Positions 5,273 to 63,988 of a stretch of 64,000 nt of DNA are shown here, piece by piece; positions within the stretch are counted from its first letter, which is position 1; the number at the start of each line of letters is the position of its first letter. A model generated the notes under the pieces. The model saw nothing but the letters and a program-made list of their open reading frames with translations, ran no database searches and had not been told where the DNA came from. The position numbers were made by a program, and so were the translations under genes. Source of the DNA: Fenollaria massiliensis (GTDB taxonomy: Bacteria > Bacillota > Clostridia > Tissierellales > Peptoniphilaceae); NCBI RefSeq assembly GCF_000312505.2, contig NZ_HG326227.1:1-64000 (forward strand). The letters are read 5' to 3'.

Positions 5273-6027
5273 TATTTTGCGAGTAGTGCAGCGCCTATGG
5301 CTCCAGCAAATCTTGCGTCTTTATGAGTTTTTACTGGTCCACCAAGTTTTTTGCTCAATAGCTCAACAGTAAATTCTGAGTCACAGAAACCACCAGTTAA
5401 GAAATAATTGTTTGAAGCATTTTTTCTATTGGCAAGGGCAGATACTTTCTTAACTATCGAGTCAACAACGCCTCTTGCGATGTCTTCACGAGGAGTTCCT
5501 TTGCCCATAAGTGAAATTACTTCTGATTCGGCAAATACTGTACAAACAGATGATATGTTAACTGATTTACCTTTTTTAGCAAATTCAAACATCTCATTTA
5601 GTGAAAGTCCAAGCCTATTGGCCATAACTTCCAAAAACTTTCCAGTACCTGCTGAGCACTTGTCATTCATGATAAAATCCATAACGTTTGAGTTTTTCAC
5701 AATAATTACCTTAGTATCTTGTCCACCGATATCGATAACTGTCATGTCCTCAGGATTTAAGAAGTGAGCTCCTTTTGCGTGGCACGTAATTTCAGTAACA
5801 GTTCTGTCAGCATAAGGCACACTGATTCTGCCGTAGCCAGTCGCAGTGATTTTAACATCATCTTCGCCGTATCCTAGTGATTTGATCCATCCTTTAATCT
5901 CTTCACCAGTTTCTTTACTATTCCAGCCGCTCGGCATAATTTTTTCGTGCAATATGTTCTTTTTTTCTTCGTCTAGGATAACAGCTTTAGAAGCAGTTGA
6001 TCCTATGTCAATTCCTATGTAATGCAT
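5272..6027 (-). CDS. ATP-dependent activase (HgdC/BcrD family) for the adjacent reductase
   Basis: 251 residues, the usual length of 2-hydroxyacyl-CoA dehydratase activases. GIDIGSTASKAVIL at residues 5-18 is the ASKHA phosphate-binding motif; VIDIGGQDTK at 97-106 is the second one. C124 in DKCSAGTGKFLE and C162 in SVCTVFAESE are the two cysteines that, from each monomer of a dimer, bind one bridging [4Fe-4S] cluster. ATP hydrolysis opens the dimer and drives an electron into the partner reductase. First gene of the minus-strand operon, with a good promoter at 6059-6087. Confidence 0.9.
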   Translation of the reverse strand: MHYIGIDIGSTASKAVILDEEKKNILHEKIMPSGWNSKETGEEIKGWIKSLGYGEDDVKITATGYGRISVPYADRTVTEITCHAKGAHFLNPEDMTVIDIGGQDTKVIIVKNSNVMDFIMNDKCSAGTGKFLEVMANRLGLSLNEMFEFAKKGKSVNISSVCTVFAESEVISLMGKGTPREDIARGVVDSIVKKVSALANRKNASNNYFLTGGFCDSEFTVELLSKKLGGPVKTHKDARFAGAIGAALLAK

Positions 6028-6058
6028 AATTCACCTCACTTAATACATACTTAATTTG

Positions 6059-6087
6059 ATTATATCTCATTAGGAAGCCATATTCAA
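6059..6087 (-). promoter_or_regulatory. Promoter of the activase/reductase operon
   Basis: On the minus strand: TTGAAT (6087-6082), 17-bp spacer, TATAAT (6064-6059), then about 30 bases to the activase ATG. Divergent from the yedE promoter. Confidence 0.75.
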
Positions 6088-6186
6088 TAAGTATAAAATA
6101 ATTTAATACTTAGAGGCTTTATTATAAATATTTTTAATAATAATTTTTTATAATAAAGACTTAAACTATAAAATTTTCTTATAATA

Positions 6187-6215
6187 ATGAAAAAGTCTTA
6201 TAATTATGATATACT
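6187..6215 (+). promoter_or_regulatory. Putative yedE promoter
   Basis: -35-like ATGAAA at 6187-6192, 17-bp spacer, TATACT at 6210-6215. AAAGGAGGG follows just before the yedE ATG at 6235. Confidence 0.5.
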
Positions 6216-6234
6216 CGTATAAAGGAGGGATATT

Positions 6235-7311
6235 ATGAAGAAAAAACAAAACTTAATGATCTTCATTGGAGGCGCCATTATCGGTATAATCGGAGCCTTA
6301 TTAATGCACTTCGGTAACCCTGGCAACATGGGTATCTGCGTTGCATGTTTCTTTAGAGACATAGCTGGAGCTCTAGGCTTACACGGAGCAAAGGGAGTTC
6401 AATATATAAGACCAGAAATTATCGGTTTTATATTAGGAGCTTTTATCATTTCTATGGCTACAGGCGAATTTAGAGCAAAGGGTGGCTCAAACCCAGCACT
6501 TCGTTTCGTTTACGGTTTCTTAATGATGATAGGCGCTTTAGTATTTTTAGGCTGCCCACTTAGAATGCTTCTAAGAATTGGCGCTGGAGACCTAAACGCT
6601 GTAGTAGGTTTACTAGGCTTTATAGGCGGTATATTAGTAGGTATTGTATTTATTAAAAAAGGTTACTCACTTGGTAGAAACCATGATCAATCAAAATTAT
6701 CAGGACTTATTATGCCAATATTTGCTGTAATACTTTTAGTTCTAGCACTAGCTAAACCTATGTTTATAAACTTCTCAGCAAAGGGACCTGGCTCAATGCA
6801 CGCACCATTTGTAATGTCATTATGCGCAGGACTTATAGTTGGAGCTATCTTACAAAGAACAAGACTTTGTACAGCAGCTGGATTTAGAGATGCAGTTTTA
6901 ATTAAAGACTACCATTTCTTATATGGCATCATTGGTATAGTTCTTGCAAACGCTGTATTAAACATGGCTCTAGGACAATTCAAACTAGGTTTTGCTGAAC
7001 AACCAATTGCTCACTCAGAACACCTATGGAACTTCTTATCAATGAGTTTAGTTGGTTTAACAGCAGTTTTACTAGGCGGTTGCCCAATTAGACAAACAAT
7101 ACTTGCTTCACAAGGTGATACAGACGCATTTATGACAGTTATCGGTCTTATCTGCGGAGCTGCTGCATCACACAACTTTAACCTAGCTTCATCAGGTAAA
7201 GGCACTACACCATCAGGAAGAGTAGCTGTCATAGTTGGACTTGTACTAGTAGCTATAGCTGCTTGCTACATCATAGCTGAAAGAAAGAAAGGAGCTCACA
7301 ATGGCAAATAA
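6235..7311 (+). CDS. yedE: YedE family putative selenium transporter
   Basis: 358 residues with roughly nine hydrophobic segments; an integral membrane protein of the YeeE/YedE (sulf_transp) family. Conserved Gly-Cys pore motifs are visible: GICVACFFRD near 31, LGCPLRMLLR near 102, RLCTAAGFRD near 206 and LGGCPIRQTIL near 281. Family members carry thiosulfate or, in selenium-using genomes, are linked to selenium uptake. Two facts favour the selenium role here: a TusA-like gene overlaps its 3' end, and selD/selA/selB are in the same window. SD AAAGGAGGG is eight bases ahead of the start. Confidence 0.85.
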   Translation: MKKKQNLMIFIGGAIIGIIGALLMHFGNPGNMGICVACFFRDIAGALGLHGAKGVQYIRPEIIGFILGAFIISMATGEFRAKGGSNPALRFVYGFLMMIGALVFLGCPLRMLLRIGAGDLNAVVGLLGFIGGILVGIVFIKKGYSLGRNHDQSKLSGLIMPIFAVILLVLALAKPMFINFSAKGPGSMHAPFVMSLCAGLIVGAILQRTRLCTAAGFRDAVLIKDYHFLYGIIGIVLANAVLNMALGQFKLGFAEQPIAHSEHLWNFLSMSLVGLTAVLLGGCPIRQTILASQGDTDAFMTVIGLICGAAASHNFNLASSGKGTTPSGRVAVIVGLVLVAIAACYIIAERKKGAHNGK

Positions 7312-18181: not shown

Positions 18182-18531
18182 GGGGATGAATTTTGGTTTC
18201 GACGGGGGTTTGGAATTTAGAATAGCGAGCCGGATCGATGGATACGTTACATCTGTCAAAAAAATATAAACGCAGAAAACAATAATTTTGCATACGCTGC
18301 CTAGTTAGGCATCTCTCAATATAGAGTTTTCTCGTACGGCTTTATATTGGGTCAACTTAGACGAGAAAATCTTTTAGCCAAGCTTAAAAGTTAAAAGATT
18401 ATCTTAAAGCTAGCTAAGACTTTATTTTGCTTTTTAAATTGGTCTTAGTGAAAATTGATAAAAAGCTGCGCTCGGAGAAGTTCTTTAGGAAGGACTTTCG
18501 GACATGGGTTCGAATCCCATCATCTCCACCA
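18182..18531 (+). ncRNA. ssrA: tmRNA
   Basis: Starts GGGGATGAATTTTGGTTTCG and ends with a tRNA-like TTCGAATCCCATCATCTCC plus ACCA, so the acceptor stem GGGGATGA/TCATCTCC closes a 350-base molecule. The resume codon GCA is at 18272 and the tag reads AENNNFAYAA with stop TAG at 18302-18304. The tag ends in AYAA rather than the common ALAA; tagged proteins would be handed to Clp or FtsH proteases. Pseudoknot-forming repeats lie between the tag and the 3' end. Confidence 0.97.
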
Positions 18532-55530: not shown

Positions 55531-56370
55531 ATGGCAAAGATAATGATATACGGCACGACATCGTCCGCAGGTAAATCGACGATAGCGACTGCTATGTGCA
55601 GATATTATAAAGACAAGGGCTACAAGGTTTGTCCATTCAAATCGCAAAACATGTCGAGAAACTCATTTAAGCTTCAAGACGGAAAACTTATTAGTAACGC
55701 TCAAGCGATACAAGCCTACGCCGCTGGAATCAAGGCTGACGAGTACATGAACCCAATACTTCTAGTGCCATCGTCTGACACAGGTAGCGACGTCTATGTG
55801 CTTGGCAAATTATATAAGCACATGAATACAAAGGAGTATTACTCGATTAAAAAAGAGCTAAAAGCGAAAGTAAAAGAAGTTTTTGAAGAGCTTGAAAAGA
55901 AATATGATGTGATGATTATAGAAGGAGCTGGCTCACCAGCAGAGATAAATTTACTTGAAGATGATTTCGTAAATACTGGCATGGCAGAACTTGCTGACAC
56001 AAATGCTGTCATCGTCGCAGACATTGACAAGGGTGGCGTCTTTGCTTCAATCTATGGCACATACATGATACTTGATGAAAAAGATAGATCAAGAATAAAG
56101 GGTTACATCATCAACAAATTTAGAGGCGATGCGAGCCTATTAGATGAAGGCATAAAAAAACTTCATGAGCTAACTGGCCTTGATTGCCTTGGCATAGTAC
56201 CATACACAAAGCTTGAGATAGCAGACGAAGACTCGCTTCACGACTACGAGAAAAAAGTCAACGCTCACATGGCTGAGCACGATGCGATGAATAATGAGAT
56301 CGATAGACTAGCTGATGTCTTCGAAAAGGCCATCGACATAGATAAGTTAAATGCAATACTTGGCTTATAA
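55531..56370 (+). CDS. cbiP: Cobyric acid synthase-like protein lacking the glutamine amidotransferase domain
   Basis: 279 residues against about 490-510 for normal CbiP/CobQ. The synthetase domain is complete: P-loop GTTSSAGKS at residues 8-16, FKSQNMSRNS at 36-45, IIEGAGSPAEINL near 129, VADIDKGGVFASIYGT at 162-177 and VPYTKLEIADEDSL at 223-236. After this, the amidotransferase domain with its catalytic Cys is absent. The last 25 residues (EIDRLADVFEKAIDIDKLN) look like the normal C-terminal tail, so about 200 residues appear to have been cut out of the middle. The enzyme would adenylate or phosphorylate cobyrinic acid diamide but must get ammonia elsewhere. Starts one base after the previous gene and overlaps cbiB. 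Confidence 0.82.
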   Translation: MAKIMIYGTTSSAGKSTIATAMCRYYKDKGYKVCPFKSQNMSRNSFKLQDGKLISNAQAIQAYAAGIKADEYMNPILLVPSSDTGSDVYVLGKLYKHMNTKEYYSIKKELKAKVKEVFEELEKKYDVMIIEGAGSPAEINLLEDDFVNTGMAELADTNAVIVADIDKGGVFASIYGTYMILDEKDRSRIKGYIINKFRGDASLLDEGIKKLHELTGLDCLGIVPYTKLEIADEDSLHDYEKKVNAHMAEHDAMNNEIDRLADVFEKAIDIDKLNAILGL

Positions 56371-57310
56371 ACTCATCGCCATACTTATAGGCGTTTTGCT
56401 TGATTTAATCTTAGGGGACCCTTATAACTTTTTTCATCCGGTTAAGGTCATGGGTAATGTCATTAGCTTTGAAGAAAGATTAATTCGAAGGACAGGGGCG
56501 AGAGGCGGCTTTTTGAAGCTGCTTGGACTAGTGGCGGTATTATTTAATATGAGCCTTGCATTTTTGTCCGGCTACTTGGCAATAATATTATTTAAGATCA
56601 ATAAATATTTGTATTTAATCTACACTTCATACATGGTCTATGTGTGCTTAGCCGCACGTTCACTTCACTTCGAAGCAGATATGGTAGTAAAAGAGCTAGG
56701 CCATTCGCTAGAGAGAGGCCGTAAGAGGCTTTCCTACATAGTTGGCCGTGACACAAGTGAATTAAGTGAAGAAGAGATACTTAAGGCAACCATCGAGACA
56801 GTCGCTGAAAACACTTCAGATGGTGTCATAGCGCCGCTTATCTACATCGCGATATATACACCACTTGGACTTGTTTATAAATTTATCAATACCATGGACT
56901 CGATGTGGGGCTACAAGAATGAAAAGTATGGTGATCTTGGTTTTTTCGCGGCAAAGATAGATGACCTAGTCAATCTAGTGCCAGCAAGATTAAGTGCGCT
57001 TCTTATATTAATCACGAACATCTTTAATAAAAATATTCTCTACGCATGCAAAACATTTTTTAAGTATAGATATGCACACGCAAGCCCAAATAGTGCCTTC
57101 CTTGAAGCGCCCATAGCAGGTCTTTTAAAAATTCGTTTAGGTGGACCACACAAATATTTTTCAAAAGTTGTCGACAAACCATATATTGGCGATATAGATG
57201 AGAAAGTGAATAAAAATGGCGTTTATTTCACCATAAAAGCGATGTATAAGGCACTTGCCTTATTGATATTAGCAATCGTAGCTATATATTTAAAATTAAT
57301 ATTAAAATAA
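56351..57310 (+). CDS. cbiB: Adenosylcobinamide-phosphate synthase
   Basis: 319 residues with several membrane helices. It joins aminopropanol (phosphate) to adenosylcobyric acid. Start overlaps cbiP by 20 bases. DLILGDPYNFFHPVKVMGN near residue 18, IVGRDTSELSEEEILKATIE near 129 with ETVAENTSDGVIAPLIY, and DSMWGYKNEKYGDLGFFAAK near 184 are CbiB signatures. The C-terminal LLILAIVAIYLKLILK is repeated in two diverged fragments downstream (57537-57596 and 59127-59149). Confidence 0.92.
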   Translation: MQYLAYKLIAILIGVLLDLILGDPYNFFHPVKVMGNVISFEERLIRRTGARGGFLKLLGLVAVLFNMSLAFLSGYLAIILFKINKYLYLIYTSYMVYVCLAARSLHFEADMVVKELGHSLERGRKRLSYIVGRDTSELSEEEILKATIETVAENTSDGVIAPLIYIAIYTPLGLVYKFINTMDSMWGYKNEKYGDLGFFAAKIDDLVNLVPARLSALLILITNIFNKNILYACKTFFKYRYAHASPNSAFLEAPIAGLLKIRLGGPHKYFSKVVDKPYIGDIDEKVNKNGVYFTIKAMYKALALLILAIVAIYLKLILK

Positions 57311-59329: not shown

Positions 59330-59350
59330 AATTTTTATATATGATATTAT
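59322..59350 (+). promoter_or_regulatory. Promoter of the riboswitch-cbiK/L operon
   Basis: TTGAAA (59322-59327), 17-bp spacer, TATTAT (59345-59350) with extended TGA. Confidence 0.8.
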
Positions 59351-59365
59351 ATAGGTGTAATTTTT

Positions 59366-59508
59366 GAATGTTCAATATAAAGGGAAGCTGGTGTAAATCC
59401 AGCACAGCCCCCGCTACTGTAAATAGTGACGAGTCTATGTATACCACTGGGAAACTGGGAAGGTTTAGATGAGGTTGATCTATAAGTCAGGATATCTTTA
59501 GAACGTTC
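59366..59508 (+). promoter_or_regulatory. Cobalamin riboswitch
   Basis: The conserved core is visible: AGGGAAGCTGGTGTAAATCC, CAGCACAGCCCCCGCTACTG and AAGTCAGGATAT. GAATGTTC (59366-59373) pairs with GAACGTTC (59501-59508) as P1. It senses adenosylcobalamin; a terminator follows at 59565, so ligand binding most likely stops transcription of the cobalamin genes. Confidence 0.93.
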
Positions 59509-59564
59509 GTATAAAGTTACTTCTTCGGTGGGAAGGAAAAACTTACTAAATATGTATGTTTTAT

Positions 59565-59652: not shown

Positions 59653-59674
59653 AGTACATATTATGGAGGTTCAT

Positions 59675-61051
59675 ATGAAAAAGGCAATATTACTTAGTTT
59701 TTTTGGCACAACAAGGCTTAGGGAACACGAAAGAGTCATTGATAAATTTATTAATGGCTTTAAAAATGAATTTAATGACTGTGATATTAAAATATGCTTC
59801 ACTTCAAGGATAGTTAAAAAGATACTTGAAAAAAAGGGCATGTCTTTTGATGATGAGTGTGAGGCTATTAAGAAGCTTAAAGAAGCTGGATACAAAGACA
59901 TAAGAGTAGTTTCGACAAACATCATCCCTGGAGAAGAGTATAAGAAGCTTAAAAATGTTTCAAATAGACTGACTACGCCATTTATCAGTAATAGCAAGGA
60001 TATAGCTAAGCTTATAGATGGAATGACTGCCTTTAAATTAAACGAAGGCGAAGAATTTATCTATGTTGGTCATGGTACTTATCACGTGGCTGATAGGATA
60101 TACGAAGACATTGACAATGCTTTTAGAGAAAAGAACAATAAATATCACATGATGAGCATTGAGGGTGAACTTGATCTTGATAGCGTTGTAGAAAATTTAT
60201 CTAAAGATACAAAAACAATTTATCTAAGACCATTTATGCTAGTTTCTGGTGTTCACATGCTTGAAGACATCGCTTCTGATGATGAGGACTCAATCAAGTC
60301 AAGGCTAGAAAAGCTTGGTTACGAAGTAAAACTTATTGACAAGGGTCTTGGAGAAGAAGATTATTTCTTAAACGACTCTATAGAAAAAGTTAAGGCAATG
60401 GAAGAGCCGCTACTAAATATAGTTGGCGTAGGACCTGGCGATGAAGATTTACTAACTGTCAAGGCTATACTTACTTTAAAAAATACAAACGCTGTCTTTG
60501 TTCTTGACAACAGAGGCCGTAATCTTGCTCTTGACACAGTTATGAGCTACGTTAAAGATAAGCCAATCATCAAGATGCCGTTTGATATGAAAAGTGCTAA
60601 CGAAGCTTTATATAATGATTTAAAACTTAAACTGGAAGAGACTTTAGCTGAGTATAGAGACGTGAGCTTCGTAACTATAGGCGATGCGGCAGTTTTTTCG
60701 ACACCTATGAATCTAAGTAAGATACTTGATAAAAAGATAAATATAAATCTAATTAATGGTATGCCATCTTTCGTTGCACTGACTGCCATGAATAAAGAGC
60801 TGCTTATTGAAAAAGGCGAAAGTCTTGTGATAAGCGATAACACAGAGCTAGTTGAGGCAGCAAAGCCTGACAGAGCTGTTATACTTAAGGGAACTCTCAA
60901 TAAAGAAGCTGTTTTAAAGCTTAAAGATACTTACGAGGCTGAATATTTTAAGAGAATATCGATGCCGAACGAAATGTATCTTACAGATGAGGAAGAAATA
61001 CGCAAGGATAACGATTATATCTCGCTATTCTACTTAAAGAAAAGGAAGTAA
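59675..61051 (+). CDS. cbiK/cbiL: Fusion of anaerobic cobalt chelatase CbiK and C20-methyltransferase CbiL
   Basis: 458 residues from the ATG at 59675, five bases after GGAGG. Residues 1-240: CbiK, with ILLSFFGTTRLREHE, YVGHGTYHVADRIYEDI (chelating His) near 130 and RPFMLVSGVHMLEDIASDDE near 185. Residues 245-458: tetrapyrrole methylase, with NIVGVGPGDEDLLTVKAILTL near 247 and VTIGDAAVFST near 335. The methylase best fits cobalt-factor II C20-methyltransferase (CbiL). These are consecutive steps (cobalt insertion into sirohydrochlorin, then methylation), so a fusion makes sense. Assignment of CbiL rather than another Cbi methylase rests on motif order. Confidence 0.85.
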   Translation: MKKAILLSFFGTTRLREHERVIDKFINGFKNEFNDCDIKICFTSRIVKKILEKKGMSFDDECEAIKKLKEAGYKDIRVVSTNIIPGEEYKKLKNVSNRLTTPFISNSKDIAKLIDGMTAFKLNEGEEFIYVGHGTYHVADRIYEDIDNAFREKNNKYHMMSIEGELDLDSVVENLSKDTKTIYLRPFMLVSGVHMLEDIASDDEDSIKSRLEKLGYEVKLIDKGLGEEDYFLNDSIEKVKAMEEPLLNIVGVGPGDEDLLTVKAILTLKNTNAVFVLDNRGRNLALDTVMSYVKDKPIIKMPFDMKSANEALYNDLKLKLEETLAEYRDVSFVTIGDAAVFSTPMNLSKILDKKININLINGMPSFVALTAMNKELLIEKGESLVISDNTELVEAAKPDRAVILKGTLNKEAVLKLKDTYEAEYFKRISMPNEMYLTDEEEIRKDNDYISLFYLKKRK

Positions 61052-61054
61052 ATT

Positions 61055-62071
61055 ATGCACGGAGCCAATTTTTATGATTATGATAAAAAACTCATAGATT
61101 TCAGCTCTAACATAAACGTATTTAATATGAACGAAAGACTTTTCTCAATTATCAGGGAAGATTTTGACCATGTCAATGTTTATCCTGATATAAAAGCGAG
61201 AGAAGCGATAGATAATGTAGCCACTTACTTGGCTTGTGATGCGTCTAATATTATCCTGGGCAATGGGTCTATAGAGATAATTGATAAGGCGATACACAGG
61301 GCGAGTCGAGTGGTTATTTTTGACCCTTCGTTTTACGAGTACGAGCTTAGAGCGAGTGTTTACAAAAAAGAACTGATTAGAATAAATTATAAGGATTTTA
61401 AAATAAATTTTGATGAATTAAATATTTTAAAGAAGAATGACTTACTTATACTCACTAACCCAAATAATCCTAATGGCAGATTATTAAAAAAAGAAGAACT
61501 AATTAAGGCGCAAGAAATTTGCAAAGAGCATGGTGCGACACTTTTACTTGACGAGGCCTTTATTGAGTTTACTCTGCATGATTATGACAGCATAAAATTA
61601 TTTAAGGATGAAGACGTGATTATTGTAAGAGCCATGACAAAGACATTTGCTTTGCCAGGCGTGCGCTTTGGCTTTGCCTATGCGCCTAAGGATTTCAAAG
61701 ACTACTACGATGAATTGAGTCTTGCTTGGTCGACTGGCTTTATACAAAATGAAGCAGCAAAATTATTGGCAAATAACGAAGAATATTTAAGTCAAACAAA
61801 AAAATATTATCAAGAAGAGAGAGCTAGATTAAAAAATTTATATAAAGATTTTAAAAATTTTGAGATGATAGATAGCGATGCGAATTTCTATTTAATTAAA
61901 TTAAAAAAATATAATGACGAAGAAATGTATAAGATTATGCTAGAAAAGGGTATATTAATAAGAAGGATGCAAGGCTACAAGAATATTGGGAAAAATTACG
62001 TGCGCCTTGCGATAAGAACTCGTGAAGAGAATGATTATTTAATCGAAAAACTAAGGGAGATAGAAAATTGA
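61055..62071 (+). CDS. cobD: L-threonine-O-3-phosphate decarboxylase
   Basis: 338 residues, fold type I PLP enzyme related to histidinol-phosphate aminotransferase. HGANFYDYDKKLIDFSSNIN at residues 2-21 is the CobD N-terminal signature. Also GNGSIEIIDKAI near 68, TNPNNPNGRL near 139 and the PLP Lys in RAMTKTFALPGVRFGFAY near 194. It makes aminopropanol phosphate, which CbiB attaches to the corrin. Starts three bases after the cbiK/L stop, with AAGGAAG upstream. Confidence 0.9.
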   Translation: MHGANFYDYDKKLIDFSSNINVFNMNERLFSIIREDFDHVNVYPDIKAREAIDNVATYLACDASNIILGNGSIEIIDKAIHRASRVVIFDPSFYEYELRASVYKKELIRINYKDFKINFDELNILKKNDLLILTNPNNPNGRLLKKEELIKAQEICKEHGATLLLDEAFIEFTLHDYDSIKLFKDEDVIIVRAMTKTFALPGVRFGFAYAPKDFKDYYDELSLAWSTGFIQNEAAKLLANNEEYLSQTKKYYQEERARLKNLYKDFKNFEMIDSDANFYLIKLKKYNDEEMYKIMLEKGILIRRMQGYKNIGKNYVRLAIRTREENDYLIEKLREIEN

Positions 62072-63369
62072 AAGGCATATGCATAGCCGCAATGAACTCA
62101 AATAGCGGCAAGACAACTATAAGTTTAGCTTTGGCAAGACTGCTTGCGAATAAAAATAATAAAGTGAAGTATCTTAAGAGTGGACCCGATTTTATCGATT
62201 CAAGACTCGGCTCATTCGCATCTAAGGGGGACTATGGTAATGTTGACATCTTCATGCAAAAGAGTGGCGCAACTGAAGTAGGTGCAAGTGATGCGGACTA
62301 CTGTGTTCTAGAAGGAGTCATGGGCTACCTAGACGGCATATATAATACGATGGAGGCATCAACTTATGCTAATGCAAAAGCTTTGGGACTTAAAACTGTT
62401 TTAGTACTTACACCAAAGGGCGAGATGTTTTCACTAATTGCTAAGCTAAAAGGCTTTACAGACTACGCTGATAATATTGTTGGCGTCATATTTAATAAAA
62501 CACATGCAAAATTATATACGATATATAAGGATCTAGTAGAAAAAGAACTTGGCTTAGAAGTTTTTGGCAATATCGAAATGGACGAGGACTTTGTTATAGA
62601 GGACAAGGACCTTGGACTAGAACTGCCAAGTGATATCAAGGCTTTTGATGAGAAGCTTGACAGAATAGCTGCAAAATTAGAAAAAGAGATAGATTTTGAA
62701 AAACTTTTAAAATATTTCGAAGCGGCAAAGACAGAAGCAAAAAAAGATTTTCCAAAATCAAAAACTAGAGTAGCGATAGCCTATGACAAGGCATTTAATT
62801 TCTATTACAAAGAGAATATTGATTTTCTAGAAAAATATTTTAATGTGAAATATTTTTCTGTGTTAGACGAGGAAGAAGTTCCTGAAGCTGATTTACTTTA
62901 CATTGGCGGAGGCAATTTAAAAGATCATTTAGAGATAATCGAAAAATCAAAATCCTTAGAAAGCATAAAAAAATATTATGATAATGGCGGAAAAATATTT
63001 ACCGAAGGTGAAGCGACTTACTTTTTAGCAGAAAGCTTTAACGAGCACAAGATGCTTGGCATTATGAATGGCAAGGCTGTTAGTGAAAAAAGGCTTCATA
63101 ACTTTGGTTACGCTTATCTAAAAGCACTTAGAAAGAATTTTTTATTTGATCAAGACAAAATTTTCCATTCGCAAGAATTTCATAAGAGCAGCTTAAGTGA
63201 TAATGAATTTAATTTATTTAAGGTAGAAAAACCATATAGAGAAGACACTTGGACGAGCTCTTTTGCAAACGAAAGAGTCGTTGCGATTGAGCAAAACATT
63301 TCCTTTGTTCAAGATGAAGAATATTTTTATAAAAAGATAGATAGTTTAAGAGGTGAAAATGATGTATAA
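62068..63369 (+). CDS. cbiA: Cobyrinic acid a,c-diamide synthase lacking the catalytic cysteine
   Basis: 433 residues, near normal length. Synthetase half: P-loop AAMNSNSGKTTISLAL at residues 7-22, SGPDFIDSRL near 38, CVLEGVMGYLDGIY near 79. The C-terminal domain has the usual fold marks (LLYIGGGNLKDHLEII near 276, LGIMNGKA, HNFGYAY, SQEFHKSS near 368), but where CbiA has AECGGLMYL this protein reads TEGEATYFL, with Gly314 at the nucleophilic Cys position. Only C5 and C79 occur in the whole protein. It should therefore not hydrolyse glutamine and would need free ammonia or a partner. Overlaps cobD by four bases. Confidence 0.85.
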   Translation: MKGICIAAMNSNSGKTTISLALARLLANKNNKVKYLKSGPDFIDSRLGSFASKGDYGNVDIFMQKSGATEVGASDADYCVLEGVMGYLDGIYNTMEASTYANAKALGLKTVLVLTPKGEMFSLIAKLKGFTDYADNIVGVIFNKTHAKLYTIYKDLVEKELGLEVFGNIEMDEDFVIEDKDLGLELPSDIKAFDEKLDRIAAKLEKEIDFEKLLKYFEAAKTEAKKDFPKSKTRVAIAYDKAFNFYYKENIDFLEKYFNVKYFSVLDEEEVPEADLLYIGGGNLKDHLEIIEKSKSLESIKKYYDNGGKIFTEGEATYFLAESFNEHKMLGIMNGKAVSEKRLHNFGYAYLKALRKNFLFDQDKIFHSQEFHKSSLSDNEFNLFKVEKPYREDTWTSSFANERVVAIEQNISFVQDEEYFYKKIDSLRGENDV

Positions 63370-63988
63370 TTACGACAACAACCCCATGAATATTGAAAAC
63401 ACAAGTATGGACATAATCGATAAGGAGCTTGAAGGCACTAAGTTTACTGATACCGAAAAGCTTATAGTGAAGAGAATGATTCATTCGACAGGCGATTTTG
63501 ATTATAAAAACATAATTGATATAAGAAATAATTTTCTTGATGAAGCACTTGATGCGCTTAAAAATGGTGCCAAGATTTATACTGATACAAGGATGACTAT
63601 GGCAGGCGTGAATGAAACTAGCTTAAAGAAGCTAAACTGCGAGATCATTAATCACATCAAGGACGACGACGTAAGGGAGCTTGCTAAAGAAAAAGGAACA
63701 ACAAGAAGCTACCAAGCGATAGAGAAGACTATAGGTGAAGACATAGCCATATATTCAGTAGGCAACGCGCCAACCGCTCTATATAGAATCATAGAACTGA
63801 TTAAAGAAGAAAAAATTCATCCAAAGGCAGTTATTGGTGTGCCGGTAGGCTTTGTTGGAGCTGCTGAATCAAAGGAAGCGCTTAGAGAAGTAGGCATAGC
63901 ACAAATCTCGACAGTAGGCAACAAAGGCGGCTCAAACGTAGCAGCATCAATAATTAACGCGCTTTTATATATTTTATACAGAAAATGA
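63359..63988 (+). CDS. cbiC: Cobalt-precorrin-8 methylmutase
   Basis: 209 residues from the ATG at 63359, six bases after AGAGGT and inside the cbiA 3' end; ATG at 63362 or GTG at 63353 are alternatives. RMIHSTGDFDY near 40 holds the catalytic His. TDTRMTMAGVN near 79, SVGNAPTALYRI near 135 and GVPVGFVGAAESKEAL near 158 are family signatures. It shifts the methyl group from C11 to C12. Gene order cbiK/L-cobD-cbiA-cbiC suggests more cobalamin genes beyond the window edge. Confidence 0.93.
   Translation: MMYNYDNNPMNIENTSMDIIDKELEGTKFTDTEKLIVKRMIHSTGDFDYKNIIDIRNNFLDEALDALKNGAKIYTDTRMTMAGVNETSLKKLNCEIINHIKDDDVRELAKEKGTTRSYQAIEKTIGEDIAIYSVGNAPTALYRIIELIKEEKIHPKAVIGVPVGFVGAAESKEALREVGIAQISTVGNKGGSNVAASIINALLYILYRK

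Follow-up and report, generated by a model that had tools for sequence, protein, structure and literature searches.

Introduction

Synthetases of the CbiA and CbiP kind take ammonia from a glutaminase site, and free ammonia can replace this supply. For CobB, a passage of a review states that glutamine or ammonia is accepted (PMC8123684). Comparable arrangements are described for other enzymes: human CPS1 keeps an inactive glutaminase domain, with Ser in place of Cys, and receives its ammonia from outside (in a passage of PMC4655335), and single-domain NAD synthetase has no glutaminase domain, uses ammonia and is presented as most likely the ancestral form (PMC3376133).

Here we describe the cbiA and cbiP genes found in a window of 64,000 nucleotides, the whole stretch of DNA analysed, from Fenollaria massiliensis, a human-associated bacterium. 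CbiA resembles glutamine-dependent CbiA/CobB (EC 6.3.5.11 / 6.3.5.9) in its place in the operon, in the order of its two domains and in its P-loop and E-x-H motifs, and it exceeds the cut-off of PRK01077, though not that of TIGR00379; it lacks the nucleophile Cys, the catalytic His and the Pro-Glu motif. Likewise, CbiP shares with glutamine-dependent CbiP/CobQ (EC 6.3.5.10) a complete N-terminal synthetase domain and the C-terminal tail, but has no GATase_3 domain and is 279 aa long, as compared with about 500. Descent and context identify the two proteins as CbiA and CbiP; since the defining features of glutamine-hydrolysing enzymes that we tested were missing, they should not be filed as such under EC 6.3.5.11 and 6.3.5.10.

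Both are probably (with a likelihood of roughly four in five) functional corrin amide synthetases that depend on ATP, no longer hydrolyse glutamine and use free ammonia directly. On this reading, they would operate like ammonia-type synthetases, an already known kind. Like CPS1, CbiA keeps a GATase domain whose catalytic Cys is replaced; unlike CPS1, the synthetase chemistry is different, the replacing residue is Gly, Ala or Ser depending on the lineage, and the partner CbiP has lost the domain outright. Neither a Cys-less CbiA nor a GATase-less CbiP was described in the titles and abstract openings of the openly licensed PMC matches listed. CbiA and CbiP are usually annotated as glutamine-hydrolysing, an annotation that would be wrong for these genomes, and the repeated paired loss is a natural test case for the reasons behind the retention of glutaminase domains in amidotransferases. 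Additionally, ammonia-only enzymes could simplify the cell-free production of vitamin B12, which, according to a passage of PMC10449867, requires glutamine regeneration.

CbiA retains a GATase shell

The cbiA gene occupies positions 62068-63369 of the + strand, starts with TTG and encodes 433 aa; its reading frame contains GGKIFTEGEATYF. The product scored 263 bits with NCBIfam PRK01077 (CobB/CbiA; cut-off 254) and 222 bits with TIGR00379 (cut-off 261.4). On the ATPase side, the motifs NSNSGKTT and LEGVMGYLDG are intact, and PF13500 and PF01656 are above their cut-offs. A preliminary description of this DNA had proposed that the C-terminal GATase domain is kept while its nucleophile Cys is replaced by Gly, with no other cysteine in the C-terminal half, and had suggested structure prediction and alignment as checks; both bear it out. 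PF07685 (GATase_3) matches residues 234-390 with 52.3 bits, and an AlphaFold2 model from 36 sequences (mean pLDDT 87.7, pTM 0.85) has a complete GATase fold, in which residue 314 occupies a turn between strand and helix. PurQ, HisH and GatD match the C-terminal half at Z 16-17; GatD, of MurT/GatD, is among the best structural matches (Z 16.6, rmsd 3.4, 194 residues aligned with CbiA 227-433). CbiA thus has, in the predicted structure, the fold of a class I (triad) glutamine amidotransferase but not its Cys-His pair. Searches of PDB sequences with CbiA and CbiP from the window returned no match at E 0.01.

We compared 36 CbiA proteins in an alignment (A1), in which several rows span the matched range only and one locus with stop codons (L147) was omitted. 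The nucleophile column holds Cys in 34 proteins and Gly in CbiA from the window (Gly314, codon GGT, 63007-63009, + strand) and in that of Fenollaria timonensis, 94% identical to it. There is no Cys anywhere beyond residue 200, and so no other cysteine of the GATase domain can substitute for the nucleophile, which rules out its relocation within the site. We found two losses beyond those in the preliminary description: the conserved His of GYPHIHF, present in all 34 Cys-bearing rows from the order, is Asn410 (codon AAC, 63295-63297, + strand), and the Pro-Glu of GGGYPE, present in all 34 rows of A1 from outside Fenollaria, is Leu284-Lys285 (62917-62922, + strand), making the motif GGGNLK. Three genomes of the genus Fenollaria carry identical CbiA and CbiP states, ruling out an assembly error. 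CbiA has retained its GATase shell and lost its glutaminase chemistry.

CbiA from the window leaves the A1 consensus at 18 of the 50 near-invariant positions of the ATPase domain and at 15 of the 41 of the GATase domain, so its acceptor or its activity may have shifted. The first of these figures would fit recruitment of CbiA to another acceptor or chemistry, with the a,c-diamide no longer made, but many of these positions are variable in the Cys-bearing CbiA proteins of the order as well, cbiA has cobD and cbiC as its neighbours, and we did not find a second CbiA in the Fenollaria genome; we consider such recruitment the least probable of the alternatives, and very improbable.

The GATase domain was excised from CbiP

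The presence in the same locus of a CbiP without its GATase domain, also indicated in the preliminary description, proved to be real. The gene (55531-56370, + strand) encodes 279 aa, and its synthetase domain scored 353 bits with PRK00784 (cut-off 273) over residues 3-239. Both profile searches and alignment with full-length CbiP, of about 500 aa, indicate that GATase_3 is absent. The last 30 or so residues correspond to the tail helix that follows the GATase domain in full-length CbiP; because this helix is kept while the domain is missing, CbiP was shortened by excision and not by truncation.

cbiA and cbiP are under purifying selection in a cobalamin gene cluster

The final 20 bases of cbiP are overlapped by cbiB (56351-57310, + strand; PF03186, 310.6 bits). 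Further on, a cobalamin riboswitch aptamer (59343-59514, + strand; RF00174, 86.9 bits, E 4.7e-20) sits ahead of the operon, between an MFS transporter gene and the gene for a CbiK-CbiL fusion of cobalt chelatase and C20 methyltransferase (59663-61051, + strand; PF06180, 166 bits; PF00590, 77.1 bits). Inspection of the letters shows a hairpin and then Ts a short way past the riboswitch. The cobalt chelatase and the CbiL-type methyltransferase of the fusion are joined in a single frame of 462 aa. The cbiA gene is flanked by cobD, for an aminotransferase of the threonine-phosphate decarboxylase type (61055-62071, + strand; TIGR01140, 238.7 bits, below the cut-off of 290.55), and by cbiC, for precorrin-8X methylmutase (63353-63988, + strand; PF02570, 241.1 bits). 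Beyond the window, the operon continues with CbiD, E, F, H, J, CobU and CobS, all above an NCBIfam cut-off, CbiG, above two Pfam cut-offs, and CbiT (76.5 bits, cut-off 78.3) and CobC (122.9, cut-off 162.9), both below. A cysteine-rich small domain protein of 98 aa (PF04071, 83.5 bits) is encoded between cbiJ and cobU (L227:6330-6626). Elsewhere, the window contains a tmRNA gene (18182-18531) and, at its start (5-655), six Rfam tRNA matches.

Among the three Fenollaria genomes, CbiA had a dN/dS of 0.04-0.06 in its ATPase domain and of 0.08-0.10 in what is left of its GATase domain, and CbiP one of 0.01-0.03, so both genes are under purifying selection. These values bear on whether the pathway could be on its way out, with the GATase domain of CbiA drifting. 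The additional losses at the histidine and the glutamine-site motif, and the higher dN/dS of the GATase domain compared with the ATPase domain, would agree with such decay, as would a frameshift of cbiJ in the assembly of the window itself (L227, approximately 5590-6346, past the window), which places the first 60 or so residues in another frame. However, 0.08-0.10 is far from neutral, the cbiA and cbiP frames are open in the three genomes, the riboswitch is present, and cbiJ of F. timonensis (L080) is intact in a single frame. The frameshift, possibly an error of sequencing or else a recent lesion, counts slightly against a functioning pathway; overall, we regard decay as improbable, if marginally less so than recruitment.

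Losses in CbiA and CbiP often coincide in the family and order

The preliminary description had inferred a parallel loss in both enzymes and called for a comparison with relatives, in which the loss was confirmed and found to be recurrent. In the family, 29 of 130 genomes have both CbiA and CbiP. CbiA has Gly in all 16 genomes with a short CbiP; among the 13 with a full-length CbiP, it has Cys in six and Gly in seven, and in two of these seven (G003 and G004) the CbiP Cys has also been lost, by substitution. Altogether, CbiA is Cys-less in 18/18 family genomes without a CbiP glutaminase versus 5/11 with one.

In the order, we found 91 CbiA-bearing genomes (29 from the family, 61 further ones and G043), the searches for CbiA and glutamine synthetase leaving out G172, G173, G177, G187 and G189. 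The nucleophile was readable in 89, with G160 and G192 cut by contig ends, and was Cys in 43, Gly in 30, Ala in 12 and Ser in four. CbiA lacked the Cys in 39/47 genomes with a short CbiP versus 7/41 with a full-length one, a count of 88 genomes that omits G043, with no CbiP row, and takes CbiP lengths from the reading frames found.

The losses can occur in either sequence. Eight genomes of the order (four in family f13, three in f9, and G243) combine a short CbiP with an intact CbiA Cys, indicating that CbiP can lose first; conversely, in five genomes of one genus (g3) CbiA is Cys-less and CbiP keeps its Cys, indicating that CbiA can lose first. The Cys is also kept in CbiP of G067 (FSICGGFQM). 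A full-length CbiP together with a glutamine synthetase occurs in six genomes with a Cys-less CbiA. No CbiA was detectable in 12 short-CbiP genomes of the order.

We also compared the 71 positions whose conservation among CbiA proteins with the Cys is 94% or higher, omitting G231. After the nucleophile, the strongest loss in Cys-less proteins was that of His181, in the ATPase domain (His in 34/34 Cys-bearing versus 11/45 Cys-less rows), which in the window is Asp181 (62608-62610, + strand), followed by His369 of HEFH (32/34 versus 15/45). The two CbiA proteins of f13 without the Cys retain His181. These losses fit a decay of glutamine coupling after loss of the Cys, in a pattern partly confounded by ancestry.

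A tree was built from the two ATPase domains by a quick method, with SH-aLRT support only and without G231, whose CbiA is split over contig ends. On it, the Cys changed at least six times, or was lost 14 times if never regained, and the short CbiP requires two changes. The two losses seem to have come about together on more than one occasion. Tests with independent pairs gave two to six pairs, mostly uninformative and too few for any significance; for CbiP length and Cys there were two pairs, with an average of 0.3 in the same and 0.3 in the opposite direction.

No replacement glutaminase was detected with PF07685 or PF00117

As an alternative to ammonia, the preliminary description had proposed a shared glutaminase acting in trans, and our searches with PF07685 and PF00117 do not support a dedicated one. 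A glutaminase encoded elsewhere would have to dock on the CbiA shell and on CbiP, supplying ammonia as GatD does for MurT, so that one subunit would have to suit both enzymes. Retention of the GATase fold of CbiA under selection would agree with this, and in g3 the Cys-bearing CbiP could feed the Cys-less CbiA. However, in the Fenollaria genome (99.94% complete) this CbiA is the sole match to PF07685, and, unlike in MurT/GatD, where GatD is a separate subunit, PF07685 reveals no such protein. The only two PF00117 proteins are GuaA (GICYG) and a PuuD-like hydrolase (GICRG), each with its own cysteine. Of the explanations that compete with direct use of ammonia we rank the trans glutaminase first, while still considering it unlikely.

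The conserved GICYG of GuaA rules out a loss of all class I glutaminases. With only these two PF00117 proteins, the genome contains no CarA, PyrG, TrpG or HisH in which a GATase domain can be recognised.

Neighbouring genes likewise speak against a subunit acting in trans. The comparison covered 61 loci of the order, of which 44 have a short CbiP. Apart from intact CbiA and CbiP genes, GATase_3-like frames occurred only in G231, where the frame is part of the CbiA split over contig ends, and in G176, where it is a 174-residue CbiA remnant with AESGG, in which Ser takes the nucleophile position. A similar broken CbiA/CbiP pair, also with AESGG, is found in G060 (L275:2324-4840), and ten loci outside the order held no extra frame of this type. 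Among the loci fetched, an active free-standing GATase neighbour is thus ruled out, the frames being CbiA genes or remnants of them with Ser at the nucleophile position. Besides its broken second CbiA/CbiP copy with AESGG, G176 carries two short CbiP copies (L183, L184).

Probable ammonia use and glutamine synthetase

If CbiA and CbiP use ammonia directly, free NH4+/NH3 from the cytoplasm would supply all six ring amides, with CbiA still amidating a and c, and the short CbiP b, d, e and g. The relict GATase shell of CbiA may serve stability, corrin binding or ammonia entry. The likely driver would be an ammonia-rich metabolism in cells unable to make glutamine; Fenollaria presumably ferments amino acids, and so we assume that ammonia is abundant around it.

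No PF00120 glutamine synthetase was detected in the three Fenollaria genomes, as compared with its presence in 74 of the 130 genomes of the family. Frames of around 640 residues with partial PF00120 matches were scored as present. Within the family, the enzyme occurs in 12 of the 13 genomes with a full-length CbiP, the exception being G003, versus one of the 16 with a short CbiP (G027, as a 648-residue frame with one stop). Among the 64 genomes of the tree, counted without G043 and the second CbiP copy of G176 (G176b), it was undetected in 35/45 with a Cys-less versus 4/19 with a Cys-bearing CbiA (Fisher p 4e-5, ignoring relatedness), and in 38/46 with a short versus 1/18 with a full-length CbiP (Fisher p 1e-8, again ignoring relatedness). 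Across five independent pairs, Cys and glutamine synthetase changed in the same direction in one and in the opposite direction in none. The link between loss of the Cys or the CbiP glutaminase and loss of glutamine synthetase, strong in the raw counts, is suggestive only, because independent pairs are few and mostly uninformative.

NAD synthetase type did not discriminate between these genomes. The Fenollaria enzyme is of single-domain size (239-241 aa), as it is throughout the 29 family genomes that carry CbiA, whether or not the CbiA Cys is present; in G017, its frame is in two pieces.

Short CbiP proteins outside the order

In a phylum-wide sample of 398 genomes, CbiP was found in 220, and most frames among the matches listed were of about 500 aa. 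Unlike for NAD synthetase, loss of the glutaminase domain is thus the simpler reading for CbiP. Nine short CbiP proteins in six other families lack the GATase domain, and a tenth genome with a short CbiP, G325, had no CbiA match. With the A1 profile, a CbiA was found in three of the ten (G351, G537 and G566, from families f49 and f137), and in all three the motif is AEGGG or AEGLG, with Gly in place of Cys. Conversely, 12 control genomes with a full-length CbiP (f55, f137) have CbiA, with AECGG in 11/11 that were readable; G493 is cut at the nucleophile by a contig end, and G525 was set aside, its CbiP reaching a contig end. The contrast within a family comes from f137 only (G566 versus G520), the short-CbiP genomes of f55 and the f49 control having no CbiA. 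No CbiA was detectable in the remaining seven short-CbiP genomes. Short cbiP genes from genomes with no detectable CbiA were seen at L167-L170, L228-L230, L234-L236 and L274. A gene pattern of CbiP without CbiA appears among the auxotroph or salvager types in a passage of a review (PMC8123684).

Together, the CbiP glutaminase was lost in at least six CbiA-bearing lineages: the large short-CbiP clade of the order, f9, G003, G004, f49 and f137. The CbiA Cys was lost in five of these six, with exceptions within the large clade, and retained in f9. We lean, by a modest degree, towards a wider interpretation, in which glutamine-free corrin amidation would have arisen repeatedly in a broad group of anaerobic Bacillota, the losses of the CbiP glutaminase and the CbiA Cys being paired, in either order, and accompanied by that of glutamine synthetase. 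The state of these genes would then read out an ammonia-rich, glutamine-poor life, and His181 and HEFH would have been remodelled after loss of the Cys, marking the former ammonia path.

Family f1 contains two CbiA/CbiP lineages, one with a full-length and one with a short CbiP, that lie far apart on the ATPase-domain tree, suggesting gene transfer or an old duplication.
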